A DNA stretch of 51,184 nt from Oscillospiraceae bacterium (GTDB lineage: Bacteria > Bacillota > Clostridia > Oscillospirales > Oscillospiraceae), in contig JAFYHU010000068.1 in assembly GCA_017538965.1 (NCBI GenBank), positions 1-51,184 of the forward strand, given 5' to 3'. This document shows, piece after piece, positions 7,547 to 49,020 of this stretch (its first letter is position 1; the number at the start of each line of letters is the position of its first letter). Below the pieces are notes generated by a model. That model worked only from the letters and a program-made list of their open reading frames with translations. It was not told the DNA's origin and ran no database searches. Both the position numbers and the translations under genes were made by a program.

Positions 7547-7601
7547 TTGACAAGAGGAACCCCATCACGTATAGTGGGCTCCGGAGGAGTTTTGCCTCCT
7601 C
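7547..7601 (+). promoter_or_regulatory. Strong sigma-A promoter and leader hairpin
   Basis: TTGACA (7547-7552), 17-bp spacer, TATAGT (7570-7575) drives the PF13303-type gene at 7628. Immediately downstream GAGGAG and CTCCTC (7584-7589, 7596-7601) form a hairpin right at the 5' end of the transcript, which may stabilise it. Confidence 0.8.
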
Positions 7602-7627
7602 TTCAACACATGTTTCCGAGGTCTGAC

Positions 7628-14688: not shown

Positions 14689-14717
14689 TTGAAATTCCGC
14701 CGGGTTTCTAATATAAT
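14689..14717 (+). promoter_or_regulatory. Sigma-A promoter of the DegV-phosphorelay operon
   Basis: TTGAAA (14689-14694), 17-bp spacer, TATAAT (14712-14717), about 53 bp before the DegV start. It is divergent from the NSS promoter, with 59 bp between the two -35 boxes. Confidence 0.8.
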
Positions 14718-14776
14718 AAAGTATCGTGCCGGTATTGGAAAATGACATTTCGGATTCCCGGAAGGAGGTTGGAAAT

Positions 14777-17118: not shown

Positions 17119-18818
17119 TCGAATCAAAACAGATGCATCACAAGCCGCTTGTGCTGGTAGTGGACGATCAGGAACTCAACCGGGATGTGCTGGGCATCAT
17201 CCTGGAAGAGGACTATGAGCTTATCTATGCCGGGAACGGAAAAGAAGCCCTCGCGCTGATCCGTGAGCACCAGAACGAGCTTTCCATTGTTCTGCTGGAC
17301 CTGATGATGCCGGTTATGAATGGCTTTGAAGTCATGGAAGCCATGCGGGAGGACGAGGCGCTCAGCCGCATCCCGATCATTGTTCTGACGGCCGATAAAA
17401 GCGCCGAACTGGAGGCGCTGGAGATGGGCGCCTATGACTTCATCACCAAGCCCTTCGACGTACATGAAGTTATCCTTGCCCGTGTCAGGCGGATTACGGA
17501 GCTTGTCGACGGAAGGCAGCTGATTTCCGCGGCCGAACAGGACAAGCTGACGCAGCTTTATACCAGGAGCTTCTTCTATGAATATGCCGGACGGATGTTC
17601 CGCTATCGCAGAGATCTGCGTCTGGATGCCGTCGTCATCAATATTGAGCAGTTCCATTCGATCAACGACCTCAACGGCCGGGAATTTGGTGACGAGGTGC
17701 TTCGCACTCTCGGTTCGGAAATTCTGGCATTTCTCTCGGAGACGGAGGGAATCGCCGGCAGAAACGAAGGCGACCGCTTCGGCATTTACTGTGCCGCGCA
17801 GCCGGATTACCGCGCCCTGCTGGATCGTTTCCAGAAAAAACTGGACGCGATTTCTTCCAATGTCAGCATTCACCTTCGCATGGGCGTCACTCCCTGGCAG
17901 GAAGGCATGCCGCCGGTTCTTCTGTTTGACCGGGCGAGAGCCGCGTGCAACAAGGTGCGCGGGGATTTCCAGAATCCGCTGATGATCTATGATGAAGACA
18001 TGCACCGTCATGAAATGCTCAACCAGCGGCTGCTCAACGACCTGCGTGCCGCCGTCGAAGAGCGGCAGTTCATGGTATACTATCAGCCCAAGTACAACAT
18101 TCAGTCCGATCCTCCCCGTCTGACCAGCGCAGAGGCGCTGATCCGTTGGAACCATCCGGAACTGGGCATGATCTCGCCGGGTGCCTTCATTCCCCTGTTT
18201 GAAGGGAACGGCCTGATCAGCGTTGTCGACAGCTTCGTCTGGGAAGAGGCTGCCCGTCAGGTGGCAAAGTGGCGGGAGGAGTACGGGTTTACGCTCCCGG
18301 TTTCCGTCAATCTGTCCCGCGCGGACATTTTTGACCCCACTCTGACCGAGCGGCTGACGCGTCTGATTACGGACAACGGTCTGAATTATAAGGACATCAA
18401 GCTCGAAGTCACCGAATCGGCCTACACCGACAACGCGCGGCAGCTGCTGGAGCTGATTTACGGGCTGCGAGGGCTCGGGTTTGAGGTGGAGATGGACGAC
18501 TTCGGCTCCGGGTATTCCTCGCTGAACATGCTCTCGTCGATGCCGATCGATGTGCTGAAGATGGACATGAAGTTCGTGCGCAACATCGAAAACAACGAGA
18601 CGGATCTTCGCCTGGTCAAGCTGATTCTCGACATCGCCCGCTATCTGAACCTTTGTTCCGTGGCGGAGGGCGTGGAAACCGAGGGGCAGATGAAGCTGCT
18701 TCAGGATGCGGGCTGTGACCTGGTCCAGGGCTTCTTCTTCTCGCGGCCGGTGCCGCCGGAGCAATTTGAACAACTGATTGTCAGAGAGATCGAAACGGAA
18801 AGGAAGGACGAGCAATGA
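17115..18818 (+). CDS. Response regulator with degenerate GGDEF and active-looking EAL domain
   Basis: A 567-residue response regulator. The receiver domain (about 10-130) has Asp62 in VLLDLMMPVMNG. The GGDEF domain (about 150-290) is degenerate, with EGDRF in place of GGDEF, so diguanylate cyclase activity is unlikely. The EAL domain (about 305-560) keeps the catalytic set: SAEALIRW, SVNLSR, EVTES, MDDFGSGYSSL, LKMDMKF, AEGVETEGQ and LVQGF. It should therefore hydrolyse c-di-GMP under control of phosphorylation. ATGA overlaps on both sides tie it to the upstream kinase and the downstream Hpt protein. Confidence 0.93.
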   Translation: MIESKQMHHKPLVLVVDDQELNRDVLGIILEEDYELIYAGNGKEALALIREHQNELSIVLLDLMMPVMNGFEVMEAMREDEALSRIPIIVLTADKSAELEALEMGAYDFITKPFDVHEVILARVRRITELVDGRQLISAAEQDKLTQLYTRSFFYEYAGRMFRYRRDLRLDAVVINIEQFHSINDLNGREFGDEVLRTLGSEILAFLSETEGIAGRNEGDRFGIYCAAQPDYRALLDRFQKKLDAISSNVSIHLRMGVTPWQEGMPPVLLFDRARAACNKVRGDFQNPLMIYDEDMHRHEMLNQRLLNDLRAAVEERQFMVYYQPKYNIQSDPPRLTSAEALIRWNHPELGMISPGAFIPLFEGNGLISVVDSFVWEEAARQVAKWREEYGFTLPVSVNLSRADIFDPTLTERLTRLITDNGLNYKDIKLEVTESAYTDNARQLLELIYGLRGLGFEVEMDDFGSGYSSLNMLSSMPIDVLKMDMKFVRNIENNETDLRLVKLILDIARYLNLCSVAEGVETEGQMKLLQDAGCDLVQGFFFSRPVPPEQFEQLIVREIETERKDEQ

Positions 18819-28921: not shown

Positions 28922-29683
28922 TCATTGTTGGACTTCCGGCTTTTCGCCCAGAACTTCTTTCAGGTGCGCCTGATCAGACTCATCCGGTTCGTATCCGGCA
29001 TCCATGGCCTTCCGCATCCATTCCGCCGCGGCGTCCGGATCCTTTTTTACGCCGTTCCCCAGGTTATAGCAGTCCCCCACGGCAAACATGGCAACGGGAA
29101 CGCCCTTCTCAGCTGCCTGAAGGCAATGCTTGAATGCCTCTTCATAATCCTGTTCGACACCCATTCCGAAGTAATAACTGTACCCGATGTTAAAGGTTGC
29201 AACCTCATCACCCTGATCGGCAGCAAGCCGGTATAATCTCACGGCCTCCTCGCAGTCCTGCTCCACGCCTGCTCCCAGAAAATAGCAGAGGCCGAGATTC
29301 TGCTGTGCCCAGGACAAGCCCTGGTCCGCCGCGAGCCGGAAATATTTCACGGCCTCTTCATAATTCTGCTCGACCCCTGTGCCTTCATAATAGCAGTTGC
29401 CCAGAACAAACTGTGCTTCCGGATCCCCTTTCGCGGCAGCCTCCTCGAGGATAGAGATGCCGGCTTCATACTCTCCCTGATCCAGCAAAGCCTTTGCCTC
29501 ATCTGCCGGAGATAATGCCTGGTCTTCGTTCTTTGCATCCCGCGCATTGAAAGACTCCGATGCTTTTATAGTCGTTTCATCCGCGCTCTCTGTTCCTTCC
29601 GCCAGACAGGTCGCCGTGCCTGTACAGCAAAGGCAGATGCAGAGCATCGAAATCATCAGTTTTTTCCACATCCCATGGTACAT
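28922..29683 (-). CDS. Exported Sel1-repeat protein
   Basis: A 253-residue protein with an N-terminal signal peptide (MWKKLMISMLCICLCCTGTA region). From about residue 65 it carries four or five Sel1 repeats of 36 residues, recognised by A-x-x-x-L-G-x-x-Y-x-x-G-x-G-V (for example YYEGTGVEQNYEEAVKYFR and YFLGAGVEQDCEEAVRLYR). Such solenoids mediate protein-protein contacts. It lies 37 bp upstream of the GGDEF gene on the same strand, so cotranscription is likely. GGAG precedes the ATG. Confidence 0.85.
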   Translation of the reverse strand: MYHGMWKKLMISMLCICLCCTGTATCLAEGTESADETTIKASESFNARDAKNEDQALSPADEAKALLDQGEYEAGISILEEAAAKGDPEAQFVLGNCYYEGTGVEQNYEEAVKYFRLAADQGLSWAQQNLGLCYFLGAGVEQDCEEAVRLYRLAADQGDEVATFNIGYSYYFGMGVEQDYEEAFKHCLQAAEKGVPVAMFAVGDCYNLGNGVKKDPDAAAEWMRKAMDAGYEPDESDQAHLKEVLGEKPEVQQ

Positions 29684-29746
29684 GGCTTTTCTCCTCTCTT
29701 TACCGGTTTGCCCATAAACCCTGCTTGTGTAAATCGGATTCGTTCT

Positions 29747-30526
29747 TTAATTTACAGCTCCGCCGCAATACTCGCAGCAGCCGTGTTCGTTCGGGAGCGT
29801 GGTTGCGCCGCAGCGCGGGCATATGACCGCCATGATGGGAGCAGGTTTCTCGTCTGATTTCTGATCTCCGAAACACATGCGGTCGAGCAGTTCTTTGATC
29901 TCTTCGCCCATTTCATAGTATTCATAGTAGTCATTTGTCCCGGTTTCGAAGAAGGAGCCGGTCCTCACCTTCCAGGTTCCCGATGCCTCCGAGGGTCTTC
30001 TGTCGCCGACATTGACAGGGCCGTTGGAAAGGCTGTATTCGATCTCATCGAAATACGGGTGATCCACCGTAATCCTGACTTTGAAGTCATAAGAATAGTC
30101 GTAGCGCGGAGGGCTGTAACTGATATAATGCCCTTCCGAATCCTTGGTTTTGCGCTCGATTCTGGTTTCCTTGATATCAAGATCGCATCCGGTCACCTGT
30201 GAATAATCCAGCACATCCGGATTGGCTTTCTCGAGATCATAAGCGTTTGTAACCATAAACTTCTTCTGGTTCTCATCCACCAGAATCTTCCAGTAGTTTC
30301 CGATGCTGCGGGTGGTATTGAAGTTGGCAACCTGCTCCCTGTTCGCCTCGCGATACTCCAGCTGCTCCTGAATCTCAGCCTTTGTGCTGTGCCGACGCTC
30401 ACTGAAAAACGGAGAGAGCTTCTTCGCGCATTCTCCGCACATATTGCCGTCCTCCAGCTTTTTATTTCCCAGGAGACCAATCTTCTTTCCGCAGATATCG
30501 CAGAATTTCTTTTCAAACAGTCCCAT
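29747..30526 (-). CDS. Zinc-ribbon protein with N-terminal DUF4428-like domain
   Basis: A 259-residue cytoplasmic protein. The N-terminus has paired CxxC motifs (CDICGKKIGLLGNKKLEDG, then CGEC), as in DUF4428 proteins. The central part (about 75-215) is beta-rich and resembles membrane-association or PH-like modules found with this domain; this is a loose judgement. The C-terminus has a second zinc ribbon (CPRCG and CEYCG). No catalytic motif is seen. Start at ATG 30526; a longer frame upstream has no ribosome-binding site. Confidence 0.7.
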   Translation of the reverse strand: MGLFEKKFCDICGKKIGLLGNKKLEDGNMCGECAKKLSPFFSERRHSTKAEIQEQLEYREANREQVANFNTTRSIGNYWKILVDENQKKFMVTNAYDLEKANPDVLDYSQVTGCDLDIKETRIERKTKDSEGHYISYSPPRYDYSYDFKVRITVDHPYFDEIEYSLSNGPVNVGDRRPSEASGTWKVRTGSFFETGTNDYYEYYEMGEEIKELLDRMCFGDQKSDEKPAPIMAVICPRCGATTLPNEHGCCEYCGGAVN

Positions 30527-30661
30527 TTTCCGTGAATCCTTTCCCGGTATAAGCCGTGCATAAGCTTCCTGCTTCCGTCCGGATTGCAAGATTATTTTAT
30601 ATTATCACATTTGATTGCCCGGCGCAACCGAAAGCAAACCGGGAATGTGTCAGCGGGACGG

Positions 30662-30928
30662 TTAAGGGTCCGCCACGCCCGCTTCGATCAGGTCGGCAGC
30701 GGTTTTCTGCACATCGGCAAGGGCCTGGGCCTCCGTCACGTCATATTCCGCTGTCAGCTCCCGCGCCGCGTCCTCCGGCGTTCCGCCCTTCTGCAGGCAT
30801 TCAAAAATCAGTGCCCCTGTCTCATTCAGCATCAGCGCGCCGTTGAAGCTTTTCACGTTTTTTCCGGTCGCCATGACCATATTCATCTCCGGCAGCTTCC
30901 GCAGTACAAATCCTTCCCTGATTTTCAT
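30662..30928 (-). CDS. PqqD-like RiPP recognition element protein
   Basis: An 88-residue protein of the PqqD superfamily: REGFVLRKLPEMNMVMATG forms the beta-hairpin start, LNETGALIFECLQKGGTPEDAA the winged-helix core, and DVTEAQALADVQKTAADLIEAG the final helix. Such proteins bind the leader of a ribosomally made peptide and hand it to the modifying enzyme. It is the last gene of the cluster with a precursor peptide and radical SAM enzyme. Start at ATG 30928, after AAGGAG. Confidence 0.9.
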   Translation of the reverse strand: MKIREGFVLRKLPEMNMVMATGKNVKSFNGALMLNETGALIFECLQKGGTPEDAARELTAEYDVTEAQALADVQKTAADLIEAGVADP

Positions 30929-30980
30929 GCTGTTCTCCTTATATCCGCCAAATTCCCAAAAGGGCCGTAATGCGATAAGA

Positions 30981-31011
30981 GCCTGCCGGCATTCGGAAAA
31001 TGCCGGCAGGC
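30981..31011. promoter_or_regulatory. Stable hairpin between precursor and PqqD genes
   Basis: GCCTGCCGGCATT, loop CGGAA, AATGCCGGCAGGC: 13 bp with no mismatch. It lies 44 bp past the precursor stop and 52 bp before the PqqD start, with only a weak T-tract. A partial terminator or processing site that leaves precursor mRNA in excess is the natural reading. Confidence 0.6.
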
Positions 31012-31054
31012 TGACCGGTCCGCAATGATCGAACCGCATGCCGTTCCGATGGCT

Positions 31055-31153
31055 TCAGCAGCCCATCATGATGGTTTCTGCCGCGGTGTTCTCCGTGATT
31101 CTCTCGTCGAATTCCACCTTCGTCACTTCGGGGGCCTCATACGTCTTTTTCAT
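31055..31153 (-). CDS. Putative RiPP precursor peptide (32 aa)
   Basis: A 32-codon gene between the radical SAM and PqqD genes, with an ideal AAAAGGAGG ribosome-binding site 7-8 nt before ATG. The leader-like start MKKTYEAPEVTKVEF carries a Tyr-x-x-Pro motif as in leaders bound by PqqD-type elements. The rest is acidic (DERITENTAAE) and ends ETIMMGC, with one cysteine as the last residue. A single Cys limits the chemistry: one thioether or a Cys-terminal modification is possible, a multi-ring sactipeptide is not. Not like any core peptide I know by name. Confidence 0.8.
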   Translation of the reverse strand: MKKTYEAPEVTKVEFDERITENTAAETIMMGC

Positions 31154-31237
31154 GTTGTTTACCTCCTTTTCTGTGGATTCTTTCTATGTCCTCCGCCGTC
31201 TCCGGCGGGAAAGACCTCTTTCTGCTTTCCCGTGTCC

Positions 31238-32332
31238 TCACGTTTCGCAGTCCGTTCTGTCGCCGCATACGCTTTTCCAGTAAGCGCAGACGGCGGGATC
31301 GCATGCGTGCTGCACAGCATAATGGCCGTGTCTGGCCGGGCAGTAGTGGCAGCGGGTGTTCACGGCGCAGCTGTGGCACGCTTCCGGAACAGCGTAGTCC
31401 TTCACGCCCTGATTGACCTCGTGCCAGGCAGCCTCGAAGCCGGTGCGCAGCGGTTCCGCGCAGAGGATGTCCCGGGGAAAGTTCGGGCACGGTCCCATGG
31501 CGCCGGTCCACCAGACGACGAATCCGGTCCTTCCGCCGTTGCAGTGCAGGCCCCGGGGGCTGACATGGGGGCGGCTTTCTGCCGAACCCAGCAGTTCTCT
31601 CTCCTCCTGCTCCTCTGTGGACAGGCGGCCGGAGGAGAGCAGTTCCCGACTCCGGCGCCGGATCCGGGCGTTTTCCTCCGCGTCAATCCGAAACTCGTCG
31701 AGGCTGCGTCCGGTCTCCGGCTTCGGCTCCGCCAGCAGTCCGTTCAGCAGCACGCTCGTGCCGAAGCCCGCGGCGGTTTCCAGCACCCGGTCGATCCAGG
31801 GCAGCATGTAGGCGCTGGGGGTAATTGCCAGTCCCAGCGGCAGTCCTGCCGCCAGCGCTGTGCGCACATTGCCGGAGACCGTCTCGAACACGTTGTGCCC
31901 CGTGACGGCTTTGTACGACTCTCCGTCGCAGCCGTAAAGAGACACATCAATGCTGAACGGCGGATATTCCAGCAGCCGTTCCACAGTCTCCCCCGTCAGA
32001 AGGATGCCGTTGGTCTTGAGGTGGATCGAGACGCCCTGATCAATCAGGTACATGTAGATCTGCCAGAAATCCGGGTGAGTCATGGCCTCGCCCCCGGTCA
32101 GCACGGCATCCACCATGCCGCTGCGGATGGCCTGCTCCATCAGGGCGATCCACTGTTCCCCGGAAAGTATCCTCTCCCGCACTGCAGGATCATTCAGATG
32201 CACATAGCACATCCTGCAGTCCAGGTTGCACAGCGGTGTCAGTTCAAAGCAGCCGGCGGCGGGAAGGTCGTGAAGACGGGCCTTCTCCAGGAAAGTCTCT
32301 TTCAGAAATTGCTTATAACCGATGGTTTTCAT
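31238..32332 (-). CDS. Radical SAM/SPASM peptide-modifying enzyme
   Basis: A 364-residue radical SAM enzyme. Cluster-binding motif CNLDCRMCYVH lies at residues 35-45, preceded by GCFELTPL; the GGEAMTHPDFW segment follows near 80. The C-terminal SPASM-type Cys set includes CNGG, GPCPNFPRD, CHSCAVNTRCHYCPARHG and CAYWKSVCG, which bind auxiliary Fe-S clusters as in enzymes acting on ribosomal peptides. Start is uncertain: ATG 32332 (used here) has a promoter -10 only 10 bp upstream and no ribosome-binding site, while ATG 32380 would add 16 residues, also without one. It lies directly upstream of the precursor peptide gene. Confidence 0.88.
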   Translation of the reverse strand: MKTIGYKQFLKETFLEKARLHDLPAAGCFELTPLCNLDCRMCYVHLNDPAVRERILSGEQWIALMEQAIRSGMVDAVLTGGEAMTHPDFWQIYMYLIDQGVSIHLKTNGILLTGETVERLLEYPPFSIDVSLYGCDGESYKAVTGHNVFETVSGNVRTALAAGLPLGLAITPSAYMLPWIDRVLETAAGFGTSVLLNGLLAEPKPETGRSLDEFRIDAEENARIRRRSRELLSSGRLSTEEQEERELLGSAESRPHVSPRGLHCNGGRTGFVVWWTGAMGPCPNFPRDILCAEPLRTGFEAAWHEVNQGVKDYAVPEACHSCAVNTRCHYCPARHGHYAVQHACDPAVCAYWKSVCGDRTDCET

Positions 32333-32341
32333 GTCTCTGCA

Positions 32342-32370
32342 ATTATAACGTCTGAAATCAGAAAACGCAA
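32342..32370 (-). promoter_or_regulatory. Internal promoter at the radical SAM start
   Basis: Minus-strand TTGCGT (32365-32370), 17-bp spacer, TATAAT (32342-32347). A transcript would begin near 32335, three bases before ATG 32332, and would be nearly leaderless. Confidence 0.5.
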
Positions 32371-32418
32371 TATTTTTCATGCATGAGCGAGGTTTGATTT
32401 ATAATCAGTCTGCAGCCC

Positions 32419-33252
32419 TCACGCGCATGAAACGTCCTCTGTGTTCCCTGTCTTTTTCAGCAGCGGCTCAACCTTGTTCTTCCGCAGCAGGAACAGGCCG
32501 ATGGCAGCAAAGACCGCTGCCTGAATGATGGCACTTATCATGTTAGTGTTCTGACTTGACTGGGCAATGACAGCAGAAGAGTCCGTGCCGCTCAGTGCCC
32601 CCTGGACCAGGAAAACCACCGTGTCATGGATTCCGTGAACCAACATGACAAACCACAGGTTTTTGCCGGTGCGGAAGTAGATCGCGCCGAAGTAGATCCC
32701 GGCGCCGCAGGCGCTGCAGGCCTGAATGGCGGCATCGCTGAAGCTGACGCCGGGTCTGAACGTGTTTGCCAGATGAAGGCTGCCGAAGCAGACGCCCGCA
32801 CAGACCACGGCAAGAATGACATGCCCGACCGTATCCTCACCGAAAAACTCATGAAAGGCGTTCTGAAGCAGCCCGCGGAACAGCGTCTCTTCATAGACGC
32901 CGACGCAGATCATCATGAGCACAAAGAGCAGAATGTCGGCTGGCCCCGCAGAGATGCCTTGCCTGCTGGCCAGAAAATTATAAATCGAAGAAAGCACAAT
33001 GTACAATTCCGGAAGGGCCGCCGTCCAGCCTTTTTTCAAAAGAGCCGTGTCAAAACGGCGGTAGATCCACATTTTTTTGAGAATGACGGCTCCCAGCACA
33101 GCCAACGCCGCACACTTGAATTCGATAAGGAAATCAGCCAGGTATTTATTGTTTTTTGCGATACCGTTAAAGATTTCGCCGGTAAAAAAATTGATGGCGA
33201 AGACAGCGGCGACAACAAGAATCGTCAGCAGCAAATTGCGTTTTTTGTTCAT
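32419..33252 (-). CDS. CPBP (CAAX-type) intramembrane metalloprotease
   Basis: A 277-residue membrane protein with about eight helices. The family's catalytic residues are present: EETLFRG (Glu121, Glu122), FGSLHLAN (His160) and HGIHD (His206, Asp210). CPBP proteases serve in bacteriocin maturation, export or self-immunity. In this cluster, between a secreted S41 protease and the radical SAM enzyme, leader removal or immunity is plausible. AAAGGAAA precedes ATG. Confidence 0.9.
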   Translation of the reverse strand: MNKKRNLLLTILVVAAVFAINFFTGEIFNGIAKNNKYLADFLIEFKCAALAVLGAVILKKMWIYRRFDTALLKKGWTAALPELYIVLSSIYNFLASRQGISAGPADILLFVLMMICVGVYEETLFRGLLQNAFHEFFGEDTVGHVILAVVCAGVCFGSLHLANTFRPGVSFSDAAIQACSACGAGIYFGAIYFRTGKNLWFVMLVHGIHDTVVFLVQGALSGTDSSAVIAQSSQNTNMISAIIQAAVFAAIGLFLLRKNKVEPLLKKTGNTEDVSCA

Positions 33253-33288
33253 AAGCGTTTTCCTTTCTTCTGCCGTTTCGAATAAGAA

Positions 33289-35214
33289 TCAGTACAGGCC
33301 ATGGATGTATTCCGTCAGCGCTGCACGGTCATAGAAATGTTCATAATCCTTGATGATGAAGTCCGGTTCGACACCCTGATCCACATCGTAATACGCGCCG
33401 TTCTTCAGGAAAGACATTCTCTTCATACCGGAAATCCTGTAGGAGGTTCCCCAGGCGGTCGTTGCGGCTTCGACCACACAGCTGCCGCCGCCGGAAACCT
33501 TGCCCAGCAGAGCAACCCCGCCATTCGCCTTGAAGGCCCAGGGCACCAGGTTGCCGCAGGAGAAGGAGACCGGAGAAATGAGGCAATAGAGGTTCAGGCC
33601 TCTGTTTGCCAGGGTATCTTCCTCGTTGAATTGGTGATCCAGGTTCACGTCGGCTACGAAATATGAGGTGGTCTGCGCACCGGTAAAGGTATTGGTGAGG
33701 GAGATCTGTGCGGCGCCCAGGAACCAGCCCAGCGTATAGAGAGCGGTAGCCGCGTCTCCGCCGGTGTTGCAGCTCAGATCCAGCACCACATTTTTGATGG
33801 GGCTGTTCTCGCGGGTGATCTGGCGGTGCGCCTCGGCGATGATGCCCACCGTATCAGCCGGCAGCTCTCCGCTCTCCGAAAGCGCATAATAATCCGCATA
33901 TTCGCCGACATCGCCCTCCGTGCGCGTAAAACTGTCAAAGGTCACATAGGCGGTATCGCCAACCTCGTAATAGGGCTGGATTGCTTCAGGATACTTCGCT
34001 CTGGCATTCTGCCTTGTCTGTCCCGTTTGGATACGGGTAAGGATGCTGACGCCATACTCGTTCTCGGGCGCGGATTCTGACAGATAGGATCTGGAAAGGA
34101 AGCCGGAATGGCTGTCATCCATCCAGTACTGTGTCAGTTTTAAGATCGCGCTGTCCGCCTTCCCGGCGTCCGAGTCCAGCAGGTCTTCGATCAGTCCGGT
34201 CTGGCGGAAGTAAAGGTCAAAGTCCTTGATATTGTGCGCATCCTTCAGTCCGTAGAAAGAATCCAGTTCCAGACACAGCTCCCTGTACCCATAATCGATC
34301 AGTGCCTCGCTTCGCGGTGCCGTGGGAGCGGAATAATACTTGATCCCGAGACCGCTGGCCACCTCTCGCTCGAACTTGTCAACGATAGCCGCCCCTTCCG
34401 GCGATTGTCTCAGTTCCTCGAACAGTATGCTCTTCCTCTCTTCCTGTGTGCCCTGGAATGTCTGATACCTTTCAAGCAGTTCCGGCGTCATCAGCCCGGC
34501 CAAACTCAGATTTTTGTTGAAATCCTCTACGGGGTGCGTCATTTTACTGATACTGTTGACAAAAATGCCCTCGCCGTTGAAATAGACGCCGACACCGATC
34601 GGGGCGAAAGAAAACGCGGCAAGCGTCTGCAGCGGAACCAGATGCTTCCCGTCCTGTGCAATCATCCGGATGCCGTATCCGTCCAGGTCCAGGACCGTGT
34701 AATCTCCGTAGAGGTTGCGCCCTTCGATGCGCTGCAGCAGGAAGGGCTGTCCGTTTTTGTCCTCCTCCGCGAACATGCTGACATCCATGTAGCTCCCGTT
34801 CGTCCGCTGGTGGAAGGCTATATAATCCTCATAGCTGATCCTGTCCTTCTCGAAATCAGCCTCCATGGTATATCCGTTCTCCCGCGTGAGGATGACTTTG
34901 TTTTCGTCTTCCTGCACCTCGCAGCTTACCTGAAACCCGCGGTAACTCATATCCTTTTCTGCGTCATAGATATAGCTCATGAGCCCTGCCCAGTCTTTCA
35001 GATCCACATAGGGCAGGTCCTCCGCGCCGTCCGTGAAATACAGGGGAAAATCCTCGTCCCAGATGTTATCCTGCGTATAAACATAGACAGGAAATGTTTT
35101 CCCTTCAATCTGAGGAACATCCTCAGACTCTTCCGCCGCCGCTGCGGCTGTGCAGCCCAGCAGCATGGAAAGGATGGTCAGAATCGTCAGCAGGCGTTTC
35201 ATTTTTTTCTTCAT
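33289..35214 (-). CDS. Exported S41-family peptidase
   Basis: A 641-residue protein with a signal sequence whose end, MLLGCTAAAA, could be a lipobox (Cys21). The N-terminal 350 residues are beta-rich with no domain I can name. The tail-specific protease core follows (about 400-641): VVLDLSCNTGGDAATA near 480, the nucleophile region SFSCGNLVPWA (Ser near 552), and the basic partner in LLGKVSGGGSCVVEA (Lys near 570). No PDZ domain is evident. It is the first gene after the cluster promoter and lies 36 bp before the CPBP protease gene, so it probably acts outside the cell on the peptide product or its leader. Confidence 0.85.
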   Translation of the reverse strand: MKKKMKRLLTILTILSMLLGCTAAAAAEESEDVPQIEGKTFPVYVYTQDNIWDEDFPLYFTDGAEDLPYVDLKDWAGLMSYIYDAEKDMSYRGFQVSCEVQEDENKVILTRENGYTMEADFEKDRISYEDYIAFHQRTNGSYMDVSMFAEEDKNGQPFLLQRIEGRNLYGDYTVLDLDGYGIRMIAQDGKHLVPLQTLAAFSFAPIGVGVYFNGEGIFVNSISKMTHPVEDFNKNLSLAGLMTPELLERYQTFQGTQEERKSILFEELRQSPEGAAIVDKFEREVASGLGIKYYSAPTAPRSEALIDYGYRELCLELDSFYGLKDAHNIKDFDLYFRQTGLIEDLLDSDAGKADSAILKLTQYWMDDSHSGFLSRSYLSESAPENEYGVSILTRIQTGQTRQNARAKYPEAIQPYYEVGDTAYVTFDSFTRTEGDVGEYADYYALSESGELPADTVGIIAEAHRQITRENSPIKNVVLDLSCNTGGDAATALYTLGWFLGAAQISLTNTFTGAQTTSYFVADVNLDHQFNEEDTLANRGLNLYCLISPVSFSCGNLVPWAFKANGGVALLGKVSGGGSCVVEAATTAWGTSYRISGMKRMSFLKNGAYYDVDQGVEPDFIIKDYEHFYDRAALTEYIHGLY

Positions 35215-35286
35215 GTTTTTGCTCCTTCCGCTATGTTTTTTCTCTGTGTTCTGACAGTTGTTGAGTCAACGCATTCATAATAAAAT

Positions 35287-35315
35287 ATTATAATGGACAA
35301 TCCCGGACCATGCAA
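35287..35315 (-). promoter_or_regulatory. Sigma-A promoter of the RiPP cluster
   Basis: Minus-strand TTGCAT (35310-35315), 17-bp spacer, TATAAT (35287-35292), about 73 bp before the S41 start. Confidence 0.75.
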
Positions 35316-35558
35316 CAGGAATTATTTGCATTTCGCGCAGGCGGAGCAGACACAGGCGGGCGAACGGTCCGGCCGCGGAGCGGAAGCCCGCGAGGCAGTG
35401 CCACCGATGCAGGGATGACCGCGGGGCGATTAGCACCGACACCCCGACCGAAGCACCAGCCTACCTTTTATGCAACACGTAGGGAGCCATGCCCTCATGG
35501 CTCCGTACCAGCCTATGACCCGCACCCAGCTCCCCCATCAACGCACCAACACTCCCCA

Positions 35559-35712
35559 ACGATAAAGCGCGGCGCAGTGGCCCCGAGCGAGGGACCACCT
35601 GCCCTGCCGCGCCATTGCAGACTCTGAAGACGGGCGCTCGTCCACCGCCCAGCAAAGAAACGCGGCCGAGGACCAGCTTCCCCAAAGAAGATAAGCCTCC
35701 CCCGGCCGCGCT
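35559..35712 (+). repeat. Mosaic repeat unit, copy B
   Basis: Same unit as 23842-23994 and 36264-36415. Likeness to copy A continues upstream to about 35425, including the GTAGGGAGCCATGCC hairpin at 35480-35505. It ends about 60 bp before the toxin promoter, just as copy C does before its own. Confidence 0.8.
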
Positions 35713-35773
35713 GCACAGCGCACAGACGCCACCTGGCGGGCGGGCGCAGGAACTGAAAAGCATTTTCTTATCC

Positions 35774-35802
35774 TTGACAGCACTCTGCTTATCCAGTACA
35801 AT
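35774..35802 (+). promoter_or_regulatory. Sigma-A promoter of small toxin-like gene 1
   Basis: TTGACA (35774-35779), 17-bp spacer, TACAAT (35797-35802). The same promoter with 17-bp spacing occurs at copy 2 (36476-36504). Confidence 0.85.
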
Positions 35803-35927
35803 AGCCTTGTCCCGAAAGGGACGGGATGAAGAGCACAACAGGCTTGGCAACGTCGTCGCAAGCTGCACATCCATTCGCTTCCGGCAGGCTTGCCGAAAGC
35901 TCAGTCGCTTCGCTGCTCCTCCTCTTT

Positions 35928-35967
35928 CAGATCAAACCCACTTCGTTGGGCTTTGATCTGATTTTTT
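35928..35967 (+). terminator. Intrinsic terminator within the toxin-1 leader
   Basis: CAGATCAAACCCA pairs with TGGGCTTTGATCTG (one bulged C) and is followed by ATTTTTT, 16 bp before the small gene's start. It lies in a stretch of about 130 bp that copy 2 lacks. It should end most sense transcripts before the toxin frame. Confidence 0.75.
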
Positions 35968-35983
35968 ACTGGAGGGATGGACG

Positions 35984-36085
35984 ATGCGCATAACCTTTCA
36001 CGTGCGGAAGTACTCGGTGACTATCATCATCAGGGAAACCCAGAAGGGCCGCACCGAAAAAAACAACCGCCACTCGGGCAAGTGA
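35984..36085 (+). CDS. Small basic/hydrophobic peptide, probable type I toxin (copy 1)
   Basis: A 33-residue peptide starting MRITFHVRKYSVTIII and ending RHSGK, with GGAGGG 7 nt before ATG. Comparison with copy 2 at 36587 shows mostly synonymous changes in this frame over the first 16 codons (ATA/ATT, CAC/CAT, CGG/CGA), while the overlapping frame from the ATG at 35977 would suffer replacements; the MRITF frame is therefore the protein. A strand-like hydrophobic middle and basic ends suggest membrane or nucleic-acid contact. A convergent promoter makes an antisense RNA over its 3' end, the layout of type I toxin-antitoxin genes. Toxicity is inferred, not shown. Confidence 0.7.
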   Translation: MRITFHVRKYSVTIIIRETQKGRTEKNNRHSGK

Positions 36086-36161
36086 CAGTTGTTTCTGCGG
36101 TCCTTTGATCGCATTTCACTAATCTTGTTTTGAGGAGCAGCCGCAAAGTCGTTGCTCTTCA
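36056..36161 (-). ncRNA. Antisense RNA to small toxin-like gene 1
   Basis: Promoter on the minus strand: TTGACA (36190-36195), 16-bp spacer, TATAAT (36168-36173). The RNA would start near 36161 and end at a terminator inside the toxin frame: AACAACTGTCACT, loop, AGTGGCGGTTGTT, then TTTTTTC (to about 36056). It would be about 105 nt and overlap the last 30 bases of the coding region and the 3' untranslated part of the sense RNA. Confidence 0.75.
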
Positions 36162-36167
36162 TTTCCT

Positions 36168-36195
36168 ATTATAGGGATTTTGCGAAAGTTGTCAA
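36168..36195 (-). promoter_or_regulatory. Antisense promoter at toxin locus 1
   Basis: TTGACA-16-TATAAT on the minus strand, both boxes at full consensus, stronger than the sense promoter's -10 (TACAAT). Confidence 0.85.
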
Positions 36196-36263
36196 GAATG
36201 ATTTTTCATCCTCCGAGCAGTCAGAGTAACGAAAATGCCAATCAGGGAACTGTCCTTTGATTG

Positions 36264-36415
36264 ACGATAAAGCGCGGCGCAGTGGCTCCGAGCGAGGGAC
36301 CAGCTCCCCTTCCGCGCCATTGCAGAAGCTAAAGACGGGCGTCGTCCCGCACCCACGAACGAACCGCGGCCGAGGACCAGCTTCCCCAAGAAAGAGAAGA
36401 CTCCCCGGCCGCGCT
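36264..36415 (+). repeat. Mosaic repeat unit, copy C
   Basis: Same core as copies A and B, from ACGATAAAGCGCGGCGCAG to CCCGGCCGCGCTGCG. Followed by the palindrome GGGGCGCCCGCGGGCGCCCC at 36427-36446 and then the promoter of toxin-like gene 2. Confidence 0.8.
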
Positions 36416-36475
36416 GCGCCGCAACGGGGCGCCCGCGGGCGCCCCGGCGCAACAGCTAAAAGCATTTTCTTGTCC

Positions 36476-36504
36476 TTGACTGTCCACTGCTTATCCAGTA
36501 CAAT
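36476..36504 (+). promoter_or_regulatory. Sigma-A promoter of small toxin-like gene 2
   Basis: TTGACT (36476-36481), 17-bp spacer, TACAAT (36499-36504); spacer nearly identical to that of copy 1. Confidence 0.82.
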
Positions 36505-36586
36505 AGCCTTGTCCCGCAAGGGATGGGATGAAGAGCACAACAGGCTTGGCGGCTGTTCCTACTCTCCGAAAGGGGGGGGATGGACG

Positions 36587-36715
36587 ATGCGCATTACCTT
36601 TCATGTGCGAAAGTACTCGGTGACTATCATCATCAAGGAAACACACAAGAAGGATCGCAGCGAAAAAAACGACCGCCACTCTGATGTGCTTCCCGTCAAG
36701 CAGACAGCGAAATAA
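36587..36715 (+). pseudogene. Small toxin-like gene, copy 2, interrupted by the IS3 element
   Basis: Starts MRITFHVRKYSVTIIIKETH like copy 1, with a G-rich ribosome-binding site. After RHS (codon 32) the frame enters the IS left end and picks up a foreign tail (DVLPVKQTAK), giving 42 residues. The original last codons (GCC AAG TGA) and the antisense gene lie beyond the IS at 38441. The peptide is almost complete, so it may still be made, but its antisense partner has been moved 1.76 kb away. Confidence 0.78.
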
Positions 36716-36799: not shown

Positions 36800-37549
36800 T
36801 TATGCCGCTAAATATTGAGCGTACTTCTCCATTGGCGTAAGGATTCCAAGATTGCGCTGCACGCGCCTGCTGTTATAATAACGGATGTAATTCTCAATCA
36901 TGGCAACCAACTCTTTCTTGCTGGTGAAACGCCTTCCATAATAACGTTCGCGTTTTAAGATTCCCCAAAAGCCCTCCATTGGCCCGTTGTCAATGCACTT
37001 GGCTACGCGAGACATGCTCTGCGTCATGCCGGCTTTCTCCAGCTTGTGGTGGAATATGCGATTGGTGTATTGGAAGCCTCTGTCACTGTGAAAAAGAGGA
37101 TGCGCATCTGGATTCGCTTTTATTGCGCGGTCAAAGGTCTTGTAGACTAACGGATTGTCGTTATGATCACTGATCACATGTGCAACAATGCGACGGTCAC
37201 AGAGATCCAGGATTGCGCTGAGATAGATTTTGTGAACCACAATACCATCATACCACTTGAACTCTGTCACATCCGTCAGCCATTTCTCGTTCGGTCTGTC
37301 CGCATAGAATTGGCGATTAAGGAGATTCTCAGCTATATACTGAGGATTCTTTGCTCGCCGCGTACAGCCACGGTTCTCGTACTTGATAGTAGATTTGATG
37401 TTTTTTGCCCGGCAGATTCGCAGGACGCGCTTGTCGTTTACATGGATACTATGATCATGCCGGAGATCATCGTTGATACGTCGATAGCCCTTATCCGGAC
37501 TCTCCATATGGATCTTCTCAATTTTCTCCGCAATCTGTTCATTTTCCAT
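36800..37549 (-). CDS. IS3-family transposase OrfB (DDE integrase)
   Basis: The catalytic half of the transposase. From its first ATG it is 249 residues, but the same frame continues upstream (GYPIEESCKLL, ISRAAYHHW) to the slip site at 37726-37732, which is the usual start of the family's HTH_21 region. The rve core has the DDE triad: Asp in WLTDVTEF, Asp in HSDRGFQYT, Glu in MEGFWGILKRE. The C-terminus (YYNSRRVQRNLGILTPMEKY) is the typical family ending. Most likely made as an OrfAB fusion by -1 frameshifting. Confidence 0.93.
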   Translation of the reverse strand: MENEQIAEKIEKIHMESPDKGYRRINDDLRHDHSIHVNDKRVLRICRAKNIKSTIKYENRGCTRRAKNPQYIAENLLNRQFYADRPNEKWLTDVTEFKWYDGIVVHKIYLSAILDLCDRRIVAHVISDHNDNPLVYKTFDRAIKANPDAHPLFHSDRGFQYTNRIFHHKLEKAGMTQSMSRVAKCIDNGPMEGFWGILKRERYYGRRFTSKKELVAMIENYIRYYNSRRVQRNLGILTPMEKYAQYLAA

Positions 37550-37686
37550 TGTTCTTCTGCTCTGTTTTCCCGACGCCCAATGGTGGTATGCTGCCCTCGA
37601 GATGTGAAGAAGTTTACAGGACTCTTCAATGGGATATCCTTTCTCAGCATGGCATTCCTGAACAGATCGGTACAGATGAGACTGCC

Positions 37687-38376
37687 TTACTTGTGAAAGG
37701 CATCCCTCCTCTCGATTTCGTCCAATTTTTTTAGCAGATCACGCTCCATTTCTGTCAGATACAGCTGATGCTTAAGCTTTTCTATCTCAATCTTGGCAGC
37801 TTCCAGTTCGGACCGTGGCTCTTGATCTTTCTTTCGCTTTCCACGCCTATCCTCAAGTCCAGCCTCTCCAAGCTCTTCAAATCGTAACGTCCATGAACGA
37901 ATCTGTGAATAGCTAACACCGTATTTGAGTGCCGTTTCACCGTAGTTTCTCCCCGACCCTAAACAGGCCTTTACCATCTCCACGCGTTCTTCTTTCGTGG
38001 TTTTTCGTCCCTGTGTCATGTAGCTTCCGCCTCCTCGCTTCGTCTTGGCGCAAATAGCTCCATGAGCATTATACTCCTGAATCCACCTTAGTAGTTGAAC
38101 TTTTGCTCTGATTTTATATTTTTTACAGATTGCCGCCAAACTCCCCAATCCGGACAGGTAATCCATTACGGCCTGATTCCTGATTTCCGTACTATAGCTT
38201 TTATTCTTTTGCTTTGTGAGCCCATCTATCCCTTCCATTTCATAATAACGAATCCATTCCTGGAAGGTTGATAAGTGGACACCGGCCAATTCTGCAGCAT
38301 GCCGCTGACTCAATTCACCGTTTATAAAGCGCTTAACGATATTATACTTTTCTTCTGCGCTTAATTTCTTTGACAT
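37687..38376 (-). CDS. IS3-family transposase OrfA (two helix-turn-helix domains)
   Basis: A 229-residue DNA-binding subunit. An N-terminal HTH (SAEEKYNIVKRFINGE, RHAAELAGVHLSTFQEWIR) is followed by a second (ERVEMVKACLGSGRNYGET, YGVSYSQIRSWTLRFEELG) and a coiled coil (LEAAKIEIEKLKHQLYLTE). Most IS3 OrfA proteins are about 100-170 residues with one HTH; this is the longer double form. ATG 38376 is preceded by GGGGG. It ends 45 bp downstream of the A7 slip site, overlapping the OrfB frame. Confidence 0.9.
   Translation of the reverse strand: MSKKLSAEEKYNIVKRFINGELSQRHAAELAGVHLSTFQEWIRYYEMEGIDGLTKQKNKSYSTEIRNQAVMDYLSGLGSLAAICKKYKIRAKVQLLRWIQEYNAHGAICAKTKRGGGSYMTQGRKTTKEERVEMVKACLGSGRNYGETALKYGVSYSQIRSWTLRFEELGEAGLEDRRGKRKKDQEPRSELEAAKIEIEKLKHQLYLTEMERDLLKKLDEIERRDAFHK
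37726..37732 (-). other. Programmed -1 frameshift site (A7)
   Basis: Minus strand reads CTA AAA AAA TTG in the OrfA frame: an A-AAA-AAA heptamer. A -1 slip continues as ATT GGA CGA and joins the OrfB frame without meeting a stop. Confidence 0.8.
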
Positions 38377-38440
38377 AAAAAATCCCCCTATGATGACAGT
38401 TTTGTTTTTCACTGTCTTTCATAGAGGGAGCATATCACTC

Positions 38441-46286: not shown

Positions 46287-46315
46287 TTGCCCTTTTTCCT
46301 TCCGTATGCTATGAT
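46287..46315 (+). promoter_or_regulatory. Sigma-A promoter of the MocR/FAD operon
   Basis: TTGCCC (46287-46292), 17-bp spacer, TATGAT (46310-46315). Its -35 box is one base from the -35 of the divergent promoter, so one bound regulator could affect both. Confidence 0.65.
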
Positions 46316-46377
46316 CTTTCTGGCATGGCAGTTTGTTGATTTCTTTTGATTTTTTTATGCCAAAAGGAGGGTGTTTT

Positions 46378-47772
46378 CTGCTCACCTATACCCTTTCCTC
46401 CGAAGACGGCCGTCCGCTGTACGAGCAGCTCTGCGGCTGCCTGCGCGGCGACATTCTCTCCGGCCGCCTGCCCTCCGGAACCCGTCTTCCTTCCAAGCGC
46501 AGTCTTTCCGGAAATCTCGGCGTCAGCAGCATCACGGTGGAATCGGCGTACAATCGTCTGATCGACGAGGGCTACGTCCGTTCCGAACCGAAGCGCGGCT
46601 ATTTTGTTTCCGATCTTTCCGGCCGGGAGCTGCATCCTGCCTCCGCGCCGGCTGTCTCGATCCGTCTGCCGGAATCGGCCGCCGATTCCCCGCTGAATCT
46701 TTCCGGCACCCGGCCTCCCGCCGCGCGTTTTCCGTTTTCGGTCTGGGCGCATCTGATGCGGGAAACCATCAACGACAAGGGCGAAGCTCTCCTTCTCCCG
46801 ACGCCCTGCGGCGGCGTGCGTCCTCTGCGCGAGGCCATCGCCGCTCACCTGCGCTCTTTCCGCGGGATGTCGGTCGATCCGGACCAGATCATTGTCGGTG
46901 CCGGGACGGAATACCTCTACGGCCTGCTGATCCAGCTTCTGGGGAGCAATCGTGTTTACTGTCTCGAAGATCCCGGCTATCCGAAAATTGCCCAGATCTA
47001 TGCCTCCAACGGAGCCGTCTGCCGCTGGGCGCCGATGGACGAGGCAGGTATCTCGGTCGCCGGTCTTGAGGCTGCCGGGGCCGATGTGGTTCACATCAGC
47101 CCGACGCATCATTTTCCGACCGGCATCACCATGCCGGTTTCCCGTCGCTATGAGCTCCTCTCCTGGGCATCGGCCGCCCCCGGCCGCACCATCATAGAGG
47201 ATGACTACGACAGCGAGTTCCGTCTGACCGGCCGGCCGATCCCCTCCCTCCAGAGCATCGATACCGACGGCTGCGTCATCTATATGAACACCTTTTCCAA
47301 AACGCTGGCCTCCACCATCCGCATCAGCTACATGATTCTCCCTCCCGCGCTGGCCAACCGCTATTATGAGCAGCTTTCCTTCTATACCTGCACGGTTTCC
47401 AGCTTCGAGCAGTACTGCCTCGCCCGCTTTCTCTCGGGGGGCTGGTTTGAAAAGCACCTGAACCGCATGCGCCTGTACTATGCGCGCCTGCGCCGCGAAC
47501 TGCTCCGGGTGATTGCCGATTCCCCCTGTGCCGACCGCCTGACGGTCCTCGAGCGCGACTCGGGCCTGCACTTTCTTCTGCAGATCCGGACCGATCTTCC
47601 CGACGCGCTGCTTCTGCAGAAGCTCCGTGACCGGGGTGTCGGTCTCCTTCCCCTCTCCGTCTGGTACCGCCGTCCGCAGGACGCCCCGGACCACACCTTC
47701 CTGATCAGCTACTCCTCTCTTTCCCCCGATGACCTGCGCCGCGCTCTCTCCCTTCTCTCTGAAATTCTCTGA
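46378..47772 (+). CDS. MocR-type regulator (GntR helix-turn-helix fused to aminotransferase fold)
   Basis: A 464-residue PLP-dependent transcription regulator. The winged HTH (about 1-75) shows LYEQLCGCLRGDILSG, LPSKRSLSGNLGVSSITVE and YVRSEPKRGYFV. The aminotransferase-like part has the PLP lysine in NTFSKTLASTIRISYM and the DDYDSEFR motif. Such proteins often control vitamin B6, GABA or amino-acid genes. The best start is CTG at 46378: it lies 7 nt after AAGGAGG and gives M-L-T-Y-T, the usual family beginning, whereas the next upstream ATG (46357) would place the ribosome-binding site inside the frame. Confidence 0.85.
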   Translation: MLTYTLSSEDGRPLYEQLCGCLRGDILSGRLPSGTRLPSKRSLSGNLGVSSITVESAYNRLIDEGYVRSEPKRGYFVSDLSGRELHPASAPAVSIRLPESAADSPLNLSGTRPPAARFPFSVWAHLMRETINDKGEALLLPTPCGGVRPLREAIAAHLRSFRGMSVDPDQIIVGAGTEYLYGLLIQLLGSNRVYCLEDPGYPKIAQIYASNGAVCRWAPMDEAGISVAGLEAAGADVVHISPTHHFPTGITMPVSRRYELLSWASAAPGRTIIEDDYDSEFRLTGRPIPSLQSIDTDGCVIYMNTFSKTLASTIRISYMILPPALANRYYEQLSFYTCTVSSFEQYCLARFLSGGWFEKHLNRMRLYYARLRRELLRVIADSPCADRLTVLERDSGLHFLLQIRTDLPDALLLQKLRDRGVGLLPLSVWYRRPQDAPDHTFLISYSSLSPDDLRRALSLLSEIL

Positions 47773-47799
47773 TCTCCACTCTCTCCAAGGAGGTTTCCC

Positions 47800-49020
47800 A
47801 TGTCTCTTTCCTATCCCACCGTTGCCGTCATCGGCGGCGGCGCCTCCGGCATTCTGGCCGCGCTGACGGCGGCCGAAGTCCCAGGCCGCCGCGTCCTGCT
47901 GCTGGAGAAGCAGCAGCGCATCGGCCGCAAGCTGCTTGCCACCGGCAACGGCCGCTGCAATCTTTCGAACTGGAACGCTCTCCCCGCTGCCTACTTCGGC
48001 ACCGACGCCGCCTTTGCCGCTCCGGCGCTGGAGGCTTTTTCTCCGCTGGATGTCCATCGCTTCTTCTCGCATCTCGGTCTCCTGACCGTCACGGAAGACA
48101 GCGGGCGCATCTATCCTCTTTCCGATTCTTCCAATAGTGTCCTTGACGTTCTGCGCTTCGCGCTGGACCGCGCGGGCGTCGATGTGCGCTGTTCGTTCCC
48201 CGTGGACAGCATCTGCCGTTCCGGCTCCGCTTTCTCTCTGACGGGCGGCTCGGAAACCCTGACCGCCGATGCCGTTATCCTCGCCTGCGGCGGGGCCGCG
48301 GGCGCAAAACTCGGCGGAAGTTCCGACGGCTACCGGCTGGCCGCTCAGCTCGGTCATCGCCGCACGGCGCTCCATCCCTCTCTCACCCGCATTCGGACTG
48401 CGCCGGAATACCCGCGCGCGCTCAAAGGCATCCGCGTGCAGGCAAAGCTGCGTCTTGCGCGGCAGGACGAAACGCTGGCTGCCGCCGACGGAGAAGTCCA
48501 GTTTACCGAGACCGGCATCTCCGGCCCCGCCGGTTTCGATCTCTCGCGTGCGGCCGCCTTCGGCGGAGACGGTCTGACCCTGCACCTGCAGCTGCTCCCC
48601 TATGACGAAGCCGCCGTGCGCTCTCTTGTCTGCGAAAAGATTGCTGCCTTCCCCGCTCTGGAAGCGTCCGAGCTCTTTACCGGCATGCTGCACAACCGTC
48701 TTGGCCGTATCGTGGTGAAAGCCGCCGGTATTCCCCCAACGCTTCCGCTTTCCTCGCTCTCGGAGGCGCAGATCACCGCGGCGGTTTCCCGCTGCTGTGA
48801 TTTCTATCTGCCGGTTCTCGGCGTCGATGGCTTTGATGCCGCTCAGGTCACTGCCGGCGGTCTGCAGACCGATGAATTTTCTCCCGAGACGCTGGAAAGC
48901 CGTCTCGTTCCCGGTTTCTTCGCCTGCGGCGAGGTGCTGGATATTGACGGTCCCTGCGGCGGCTACAACCTCCAGTGGGCCTGGGCCAGCGGAGTGCTTG
49001 CCGGGAGGCTGGGCGCATGA
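47800..49020 (+). CDS. HI0933/BaiN-type FAD-dependent oxidoreductase
   Basis: A 406-residue flavoprotein. The FAD motif is VAVIGGGASGILAALTA, followed by the family signature GRKLLATGNGRCNLSNWN and, at the C-terminus, FFACGEVLDIDGPCGGYNLQ with AWASGVLAGR. Members are annotated as aminoacetone oxidases or BaiN bile-acid reductases; the real substrate is unclear. GGAGG precedes ATG, and its stop overlaps the next gene (ATGA). Confidence 0.9.
   Translation: MSLSYPTVAVIGGGASGILAALTAAEVPGRRVLLLEKQQRIGRKLLATGNGRCNLSNWNALPAAYFGTDAAFAAPALEAFSPLDVHRFFSHLGLLTVTEDSGRIYPLSDSSNSVLDVLRFALDRAGVDVRCSFPVDSICRSGSAFSLTGGSETLTADAVILACGGAAGAKLGGSSDGYRLAAQLGHRRTALHPSLTRIRTAPEYPRALKGIRVQAKLRLARQDETLAAADGEVQFTETGISGPAGFDLSRAAAFGGDGLTLHLQLLPYDEAAVRSLVCEKIAAFPALEASELFTGMLHNRLGRIVVKAAGIPPTLPLSSLSEAQITAAVSRCCDFYLPVLGVDGFDAAQVTAGGLQTDEFSPETLESRLVPGFFACGEVLDIDGPCGGYNLQWAWASGVLAGRLGA

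Follow-up and report, generated by a model that had tools for sequence, protein, structure and literature searches.

Between a radical S-adenosylmethionine (SAM) gene and a PqqD-family gene in a contig of an Oscillospiraceae bacterium lies an open frame of 32 codons. Does this frame encode the precursor of a ribosomally synthesized and post-translationally modified peptide (RiPP), and what would its neighbours do to the product? The frame is found in GenBank assembly GCA_017538965.1, contig JAFYHU010000068.1, positions 1 to 51,184 of the forward strand, and this whole stretch of 51,184 nucleotides is referred to here as the window. An original prediction had read the frame as a RiPP precursor and had added two upstream protease genes to its pathway. 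Comparison with related loci indicates that the tiny gene is real, yet easy to overlook, and that the neighbouring radical enzyme probably modifies its peptide. It is very probable that the radical SAM enzyme, the precursor and a PqqD-like RiPP recognition element (RRE) form the core of a RiPP family, the nine near relatives of which all come from records with ruminant-gut names. The trio and the leader motif are located as follows (E, expect value):

31055..31153 (31153 to 31055), minus strand: RiPP precursor gene; 32 residues, MKKTYEAPEVTKVEFDERITENTAAETIMMGC, with leader YEAPEVTKVEFD...RIT, a short core and the only Cys at its end.
31130..31141, minus strand: YxxP motif, precursor residues 5–8; Y5 and P8 are invariant in all nine aligned precursors.
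31238..32332, minus strand: radical SAM maturase (putative) with SPASM-type cysteines; 364 residues; PF04055, E 2.3e-18; start set by homology.
30662..30928, minus strand: PqqD-like discrete RRE (predicted); 88 residues; PF05402, E 1.7e-14; start set by homology.

The frame carries all that had been read from it: a strong ribosome-binding site (Shine-Dalgarno AAAAGGAGGT, 7 bases upstream of the ATG), a Tyr-x-x-Pro motif, and a single Cys as the last residue. Its position, adjoined by the radical SAM gene on one side and by the PqqD-family gene on the other, is borne out by the Pfam matches given above. Relatives of the radical SAM protein were sought in one genome per species, which gave 13 pattern matches, nine of them encoding a relative; in all nine related loci, a precursor homologue lies directly 3' of the radical SAM gene, and in eight it is intact. 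When a profile was made from the eight relatives with an intact frame, the window being excluded, 31055–31153 came out at the top of the 648 window open reading frames (ORFs) of at least 20 residues (E 1.2e-10; runner-up, E 1.5). On these sequence grounds the frame is a genuine precursor gene, more than a product of chance, and the predicted trio is supported. Retained enzymes beside a lost frame were found in one of the nine loci, L054, whose precursor lacks its own start codon and has a TGA inside the core. In that locus (L054:2910-4184) the radical SAM frame continues in frame into the precursor leader before the TGA is reached within the core, and would be either an enzyme–substrate fusion or a decaying copy. 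The precursors reach the cut-off of no Pfam or NCBIfam family, and no description of this precursor family was recognised in the open-access full-text literature, which is weak evidence of absence.

The nine radical SAM proteins are 55–58% identical to that of the window in the best segment, and 54–58% identical on an alignment of eight of them. The records from which they come have titles with RUG isolate names in seven cases, which we take to denote rumen genomes, and RGIG isolate names in two (goat reticulum and water deer rumen). The source is a gut bacterium, probably from a ruminant. One of the loci (L060) comes from G478, a genome that belongs to the same genus as the window. The radical SAM proteins of L055 and L053 are 87% identical, and their records are titled Coriobacteriaceae and Lachnospiraceae, respectively, which reflects either a transfer between phyla or a binning error. 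The loci L052, L054 and L055 end early, and absences noted there are consequently soft.

The radical SAM identity of the enzyme gene stood, with its start moved by homologues from 32380 to 32332, whereas the predicted SPASM domain stays below the Pfam threshold: it is not called on the window protein at E 1, and on the L058 relative it is sub-threshold (16.8 of 21.5 bits). The CxxxCxxC motif and eight C-terminal Cys of a SPASM-kind domain (C264, C282, C319, C322, C328, C331, C344 and C349) are invariant in the ten aligned radical SAM proteins. Of the 53 NCBIfam matches of the enzyme, none of the best 25 attains its cut-off. The closest solved structure is SkfB, both by sequence (E 3.1e-14) and by the fold of a weak model, and the fold search with this model gives only the superfamily.

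The identity of the PqqD-like gene was likewise confirmed, with its start placed by homologues at 30928 rather than 31039. The protein is 59–69% identical to the copies of the nine relatives; a PqqD match occurs in eight of the nine related loci, and the L052 contig stops about 200 bases past the precursor. Its AlphaFold model (predicted local distance difference test, pLDDT, 86.8) best matches two lasso B1 proteins, TbiB1 and one other, each of which has a structure determined with a leader, at template modelling (TM) scores of 0.77–0.82 and E values of 5e-5 to 2e-4. In this model the PqqD-like partner takes the form of an RRE, of the type by which lasso leaders are bound, and YxxP is given as an RRE recognition motif in PMC12710340. 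The locus combines a conserved leader and a separate core beside a radical SAM enzyme with an RRE-fold model and a YxxP leader, and a RiPP pathway of the radical SAM plus RRE type is well supported.

Leader and core evolve differently. The precursor alignment comprises the window and the eight intact relatives, L054 being left out, and all ten of its invariant columns (Y5, P8, T11, K12, V13, E14, F15, D16, I19 and T20) fall in the leader. In a block of 12 leader codons, with L054 and L056 left out, the eight sequences give synonymous and non-synonymous divergences (Ks and Ka) of 1.05 and 0.052 (Ka/Ks about 0.05); the window against the other seven gives a Ks of 1.48 and a Ka of 0.061 (Ka/Ks about 0.04). 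The precursor leader is constrained, and the window copy is included in this constraint. In the pair L058/L059, the core has a Ka of 0.65 and a Ks of 0.85, the leader has no non-synonymous change (Ka 0), and the radical SAM gene has a Ka of 0.019 and a Ks of 0.20. Within this pair, variation in the core far exceeds that in the enzyme (Fisher p 2.8e-14 for non-synonymous density and 3.8e-4 for the non-synonymous to synonymous ratio). A core that changes behind a steady leader would suit either a strain-specific signal or a peptide secreted for interference.

The cores also differ in their Cys residues. All eight intact relatives have two core Cys, which enclose 8–14 residues and are followed by 3–6 residues after the second. 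In the window precursor, Ala is aligned with the first Cys of the relatives, and the only Cys is the final residue. The lone terminal Cys, whose conservation in relatives had been named as a check, is by this comparison a local variation peculiar to the window copy. Its position was confirmed. The new modification that had been suggested on the strength of it lost weight on two grounds: there are two core Cys in the intact relatives, and a lone thioether bridge, from Cys23 to Asn20, is already known from the product NxxcA (PMC8326336). The chemistry of the modification may still be new. The NxxC motif of NxxcA was looked for at the second Cys and was not seen in the window or in its relatives.

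A further conserved element lies behind the precursor:

30980..31012, minus strand: hairpin of 14 pairs, between the precursor and the PqqD gene; covarying.

It is the longest of the eight window hairpins with at least 12 pairs, five shuffles having given 1–3 each, and it occurs at one place in the window's whole genome when up to 3 mismatches are allowed. A hairpin of about 13–15 pairs is found 3' of the precursor in the window and in six of the nine relatives, and was not found at this place in L054, in L057 or in L052, where the contig stops some 200 bases later. Across six distinct sequences, 98.7% of cells are paired and 6 of 13 pairs have changed on both sides, while slid versions used as a control pair at 25–50%. 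This set leaves out L056 and L059, whose letters are the same as those of L055a and L058, and a second L056 hairpin; one of its six sequences is the second L055 copy, which stands ahead of a second PqqD gene that no radical SAM gene accompanies. Such second PqqD genes follow a hairpin of the same kind at L055:1418-1765 and L056:1379-1722 (the latter in two pieces), and neither a radical SAM gene nor a precursor was seen beside them. An Rfam search over 29000–36500 gave a single match, at E 0.72, far under the gathering score and off the hairpin. The hairpin may serve to end or attenuate the transcript and so set the dosage of the precursor apart from that of the downstream genes, with the caveat that ordinary terminators likewise keep their pairing.

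The related loci contain further genes. By tblastn, an HprK-like protein was found in seven of the nine loci, an S26-type peptidase in six, an NTP_transf_5 protein in six, and a full ABC transporter in two (L058 and L059); in L057 the HprK-like and NTP_transf_5 matches are each in two pieces. For the HprK-like and S26-type labels the Pfam scores stay under the threshold (16.7 of 33.3 and 19.9 of 22.9 bits, respectively), and the NTP_transf_5 and ABC labels are above the Pfam cut-off. A family-4 glycosyltransferase lies between the hairpin and the PqqD gene in L053 and L060, and an APH(3')-type phosphotransferase gene lies between the precursor and the PqqD gene at L054:4233-5045 (217 bits against an NCBIfam cut-off of 205). 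A gene at the 3' end of L052 resembles the latter by eye. The accessory proteins of the relatives have no match in the 51 kb of the window, in a search that did not include the APH-type protein. A search at E 0.001 of the entire assembly that contains the window (93.9% complete) gave no match to the HprK-like, S26-type and NTP_transf_5 proteins, and the same search did match in G478, G011 and G443. The motif at the putative cut site is ITEN in the window, not TAS. The lack of both the TAS motif and an S26 match can be read as a matching pair of losses, through another processing route or through decay; the enzyme is intact, and a different route is therefore slightly favoured. The window cluster is a diverged, stripped-down version, and would be either a minimal pathway that uses other proteases or a cluster on its way out.

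In the pathway that these genes suggest, the RRE would bind the YxxP leader and offer the core to the radical SAM enzyme for cross-linking, in which a core Cys would be the likeliest participant. Because all nine cores hold a Cys, a thioether or another Cys-based bond serves as a tentative first guess. From the relatives, an S26-type peptidase would be expected to cut after a small-x-small T-A-S sequence that precedes x-Cys, the kinase-like proteins and nucleotidyl- or glycosyltransferases may decorate the product, and an ABC exporter would release it. A bolder proposal, unlikely in its full form, is that the loci define an undescribed RiPP class of ruminant-gut bacteria. In this class a hypervariable loop, as a rule with a Cys on either side, would be closed into a ring by a single radical SAM enzyme, and the window copy would be a natural one-Cys, three-gene version.

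The leader type extends beyond these loci. Of 27 loci whose enzymes are more distant, mostly at about 30–35% identity, 14 have what by eye is a plausible peptide with a YxxP or FxxP leader; the filter used one leader pattern and a ribosome-binding site, and missed the L029 peptide. Among the 102 genomes of the window's genus, its own included, four have the enzyme at E 1e-60 or better and seven have a frame that resembles the precursor at E 0.01. Two of these frames neighbour very large proteins. Peptides of the YxxP type that carry an IITS motif were seen directly 3' of such proteins at L102:3716-3838 and L103:3238-3378 (that of L103 with a subtilase domain), and no radical SAM gene was recognised in the stretch around either peptide. 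The leader type is, therefore, broader than this pathway. A tandem pair of radical SAM genes with three YxxP-leader peptides was observed at L070:1013-4278; two of the peptides have NPAGKGFA and HPSGKTF in common within the core. A search of plasmids gave 64 records, all below 60% identity (the eight listed, 22–30%), and none of 26 pattern matches in viral contigs was confirmed.

Several observations weigh against a functional pathway with a Cys-bonded, fast-changing core. Asn too is present in all nine near-family peptides when the residue at the leader/core border is counted, and two of the four L077 peptides of the wider family have no core Cys. At 0.76, the Ka/Ks of the L058/L059 core stays under 1, and Ks is raised as well in the leader (0.57) and in the PqqD gene (0.69) of this pair compared with 0.20 in the radical SAM gene; positive selection on the core is thus not proven, and the raised Ks makes an exchange of the precursor region possible. 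The L055/L056 precursors differ by six non-synonymous and no synonymous changes, three of the six in the leader. The structural model of the enzyme is a weak one (mean pLDDT 67), and the chemistry of the putative product does not follow from sequence. Lastly, the window has no relatives of the kinase-like, S26-type and nucleotidyltransferase proteins, and lacks the first Cys, the tail and the TAS motif, and its enzyme breaks 25 of 165 columns that are invariant among eight near relatives (L056 left out), compared with 0–10 for each of the others.

These last losses could mean decay, with the window trio as a degenerate remnant of the relatives' cluster that yields no mature product, and the visibly broken L054 adds to this case. 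The window enzyme is also the most diverged of the nine near-family members by pairwise identity. Against decay, however, stand the full-length radical SAM frame, which keeps every one of the 40 columns that do not vary across 17 other sequences, near and distant, and whose identity to nine distant enzymes (0.30–0.36) is no lower than that of its relatives (0.30–0.35), together with the constrained leader and the strong ribosome-binding site of the precursor. A remnant is therefore rather unlikely. The lack of the relatives' S26 peptidase from the genome also bears on the five-gene pathway of the original prediction, in which two proteases would mature the peptide or protect the producer, since another protease would be needed. 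The two genes are indeed present upstream on the same strand, with gaps of 36 and 86 bases once the radical SAM start is corrected:

33289..35214, minus strand: S41-family protein; PF03572, E 1.4e-11.
32419..33252, minus strand: CPBP (Rce1-like) membrane protein; PF02517, E 1.2e-18.
32342..32370, minus strand: promoter-like TTGCGT-N17-TATAAT, 9 bases before the radical SAM start; a consensus match only.

Their order with the trio does not recur: neither the S41 nor the CPBP protein has a match at E 0.001 in any of the nine related loci, in which the upstream reach is 1.5–6 kb. The S41 protein belongs to a family with eight copies in the window's genome, and has 10 matches in six other genomes (60 searched, its own included). 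Of the 17 other S41 places, 11 were examined and show no CPBP or radical SAM match in their flanks (up to 1.5 kb, some shorter), and none of the nine radical SAM matches of the window's genome lies on the other S41 contigs (C3, C26 and C71). The single promoter that had been placed at 35287–35315 has an equal pattern at 32342–32370, between the proteases and the trio and directly before the radical SAM gene. The pattern TTG-N20-TATAAT occurs three times in the window, these two sites included, compared with 0.08 expected, as consensus matches only, and a stricter promoter scan lists neither site. The five-gene operon was rejected for these reasons, and a role of the two proteases in the pathway is improbable; from the gene comparisons they are probably bystanders outside it. 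A cofactor-type pathway like those of PQQ or mycofactocin, in which the peptide would be the raw material, would account for the discrete PqqD-like partner and for partial profile matches of the enzyme, but these are far under the cut-offs (mycofactocin, 58.1 of 265 bits; PqqE, 49.6 of 381). Cofactor precursors generally keep their core, whereas here every invariant column is in the leader and the core is the fastest-changing part in L058/L059, which makes this pathway highly improbable. A kinship with the lasso systems of Bacillota is barely credible: the YxxP leader, the B1-type RRE and the HprK-like and nucleotidyltransferase genes are shared, the last two as reported for rumen lasso clusters in PMC7533575, yet a radical SAM enzyme stands in place of the cyclase, and neither an Asn-synthetase-type cyclase nor a transglutaminase-type (B2) leader peptidase was found among the scanned cluster ORFs, which do not cover every ORF, or the relatives' recurrent genes. 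The RRE model matches lasso B1 proteins, and an ABC transporter is found in some relatives as well.

Among radical SAM systems, the sactipeptide and ranthipeptide pathways (SkfB, AlbA, StsB/StsC and PapB) are alike in having a radical SAM maturase with extra Cys, a short core that contains Cys, and an RRE. PMC12710340 places StsC among the discrete RREs and in the W/Y/LxxP/L/I recognition group. The window enzyme falls far below the sactipeptide models, with 46.9 of 300 bits for SkfB, 36.3 of 850 for AlbA and 33.6 of 625 for StsB, as does the L058 enzyme for the ranthipeptide model PapB (42.4 of 340). The family differs further in its two Cys around a variable loop in the relatives and its one Cys in the window, and a thioether is hypothetical here. 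The SynChlorMet cassette (NCBIfam ScmC, ScmD, ScmE and ScmF) likewise brings together radical SAM, PqqD-like and HprK-like proteins. The ScmC model matches the HprK-like protein of L058 at E 3.7e-11, yet with 42.9 of 125 bits, and ScmF (50.5 of 400), ScmE (35.1 of 400) and ScmD (13.5 of 100) are also under their cut-offs; one radical SAM gene is found here, compared with two in the cassette as read from the model names. The PQQ and mycofactocin systems share the PqqD-type RRE and the SPASM enzyme, and differ in the score of the enzyme and in the varying core. Aromatic cross-links, of the kinds found in streptide, darobactin and triceptides, were set aside; the window core has no aromatic residue.

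The surroundings of the trio offer some further observations. A five-gene array of S41-family genes, of the same kind as the gene at 33289–35214, is present at G000:C3:3922-18902. An older S41/DUF4428 context into which the trio would have been placed was considered from an S41-DUF4428 pair without the trio in G036, and was not relied on (DUF4428 match 39.6% over 106 columns). Upstream of the cluster, at 35559–36681, an intergenic unit occurs in direct repeats with a spacing of 603–705 bases and 83–92% identity, and is followed by transposase genes at 36800–38412, presumably of the IS3 type. The long minus-strand ORFs at 46312–48693, 48966–49970, 7568–8677 and 14711–17127 have no Pfam match at the thresholds used.

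The locus adds a precursor and maturase family that stands above no Pfam or NCBIfam cut-off (for the enzyme, among the best 25 of 53 NCBIfam matches); the leader of its precursors is steady, and their core changes fast. The family is a candidate source of interference or signalling peptides in the rumen, and the trio is a compact, co-expressible system for finding the activity of the enzyme. The window copy, from which the first Cys has been lost naturally, offers a ready test of whether Cys is the residue that forms the bond. If the proposed class is real, the one-Cys, three-gene copy of the window would need no dedicated peptidase, kinase or nucleotidyltransferase, and would show the minimal catalytic unit of the family.

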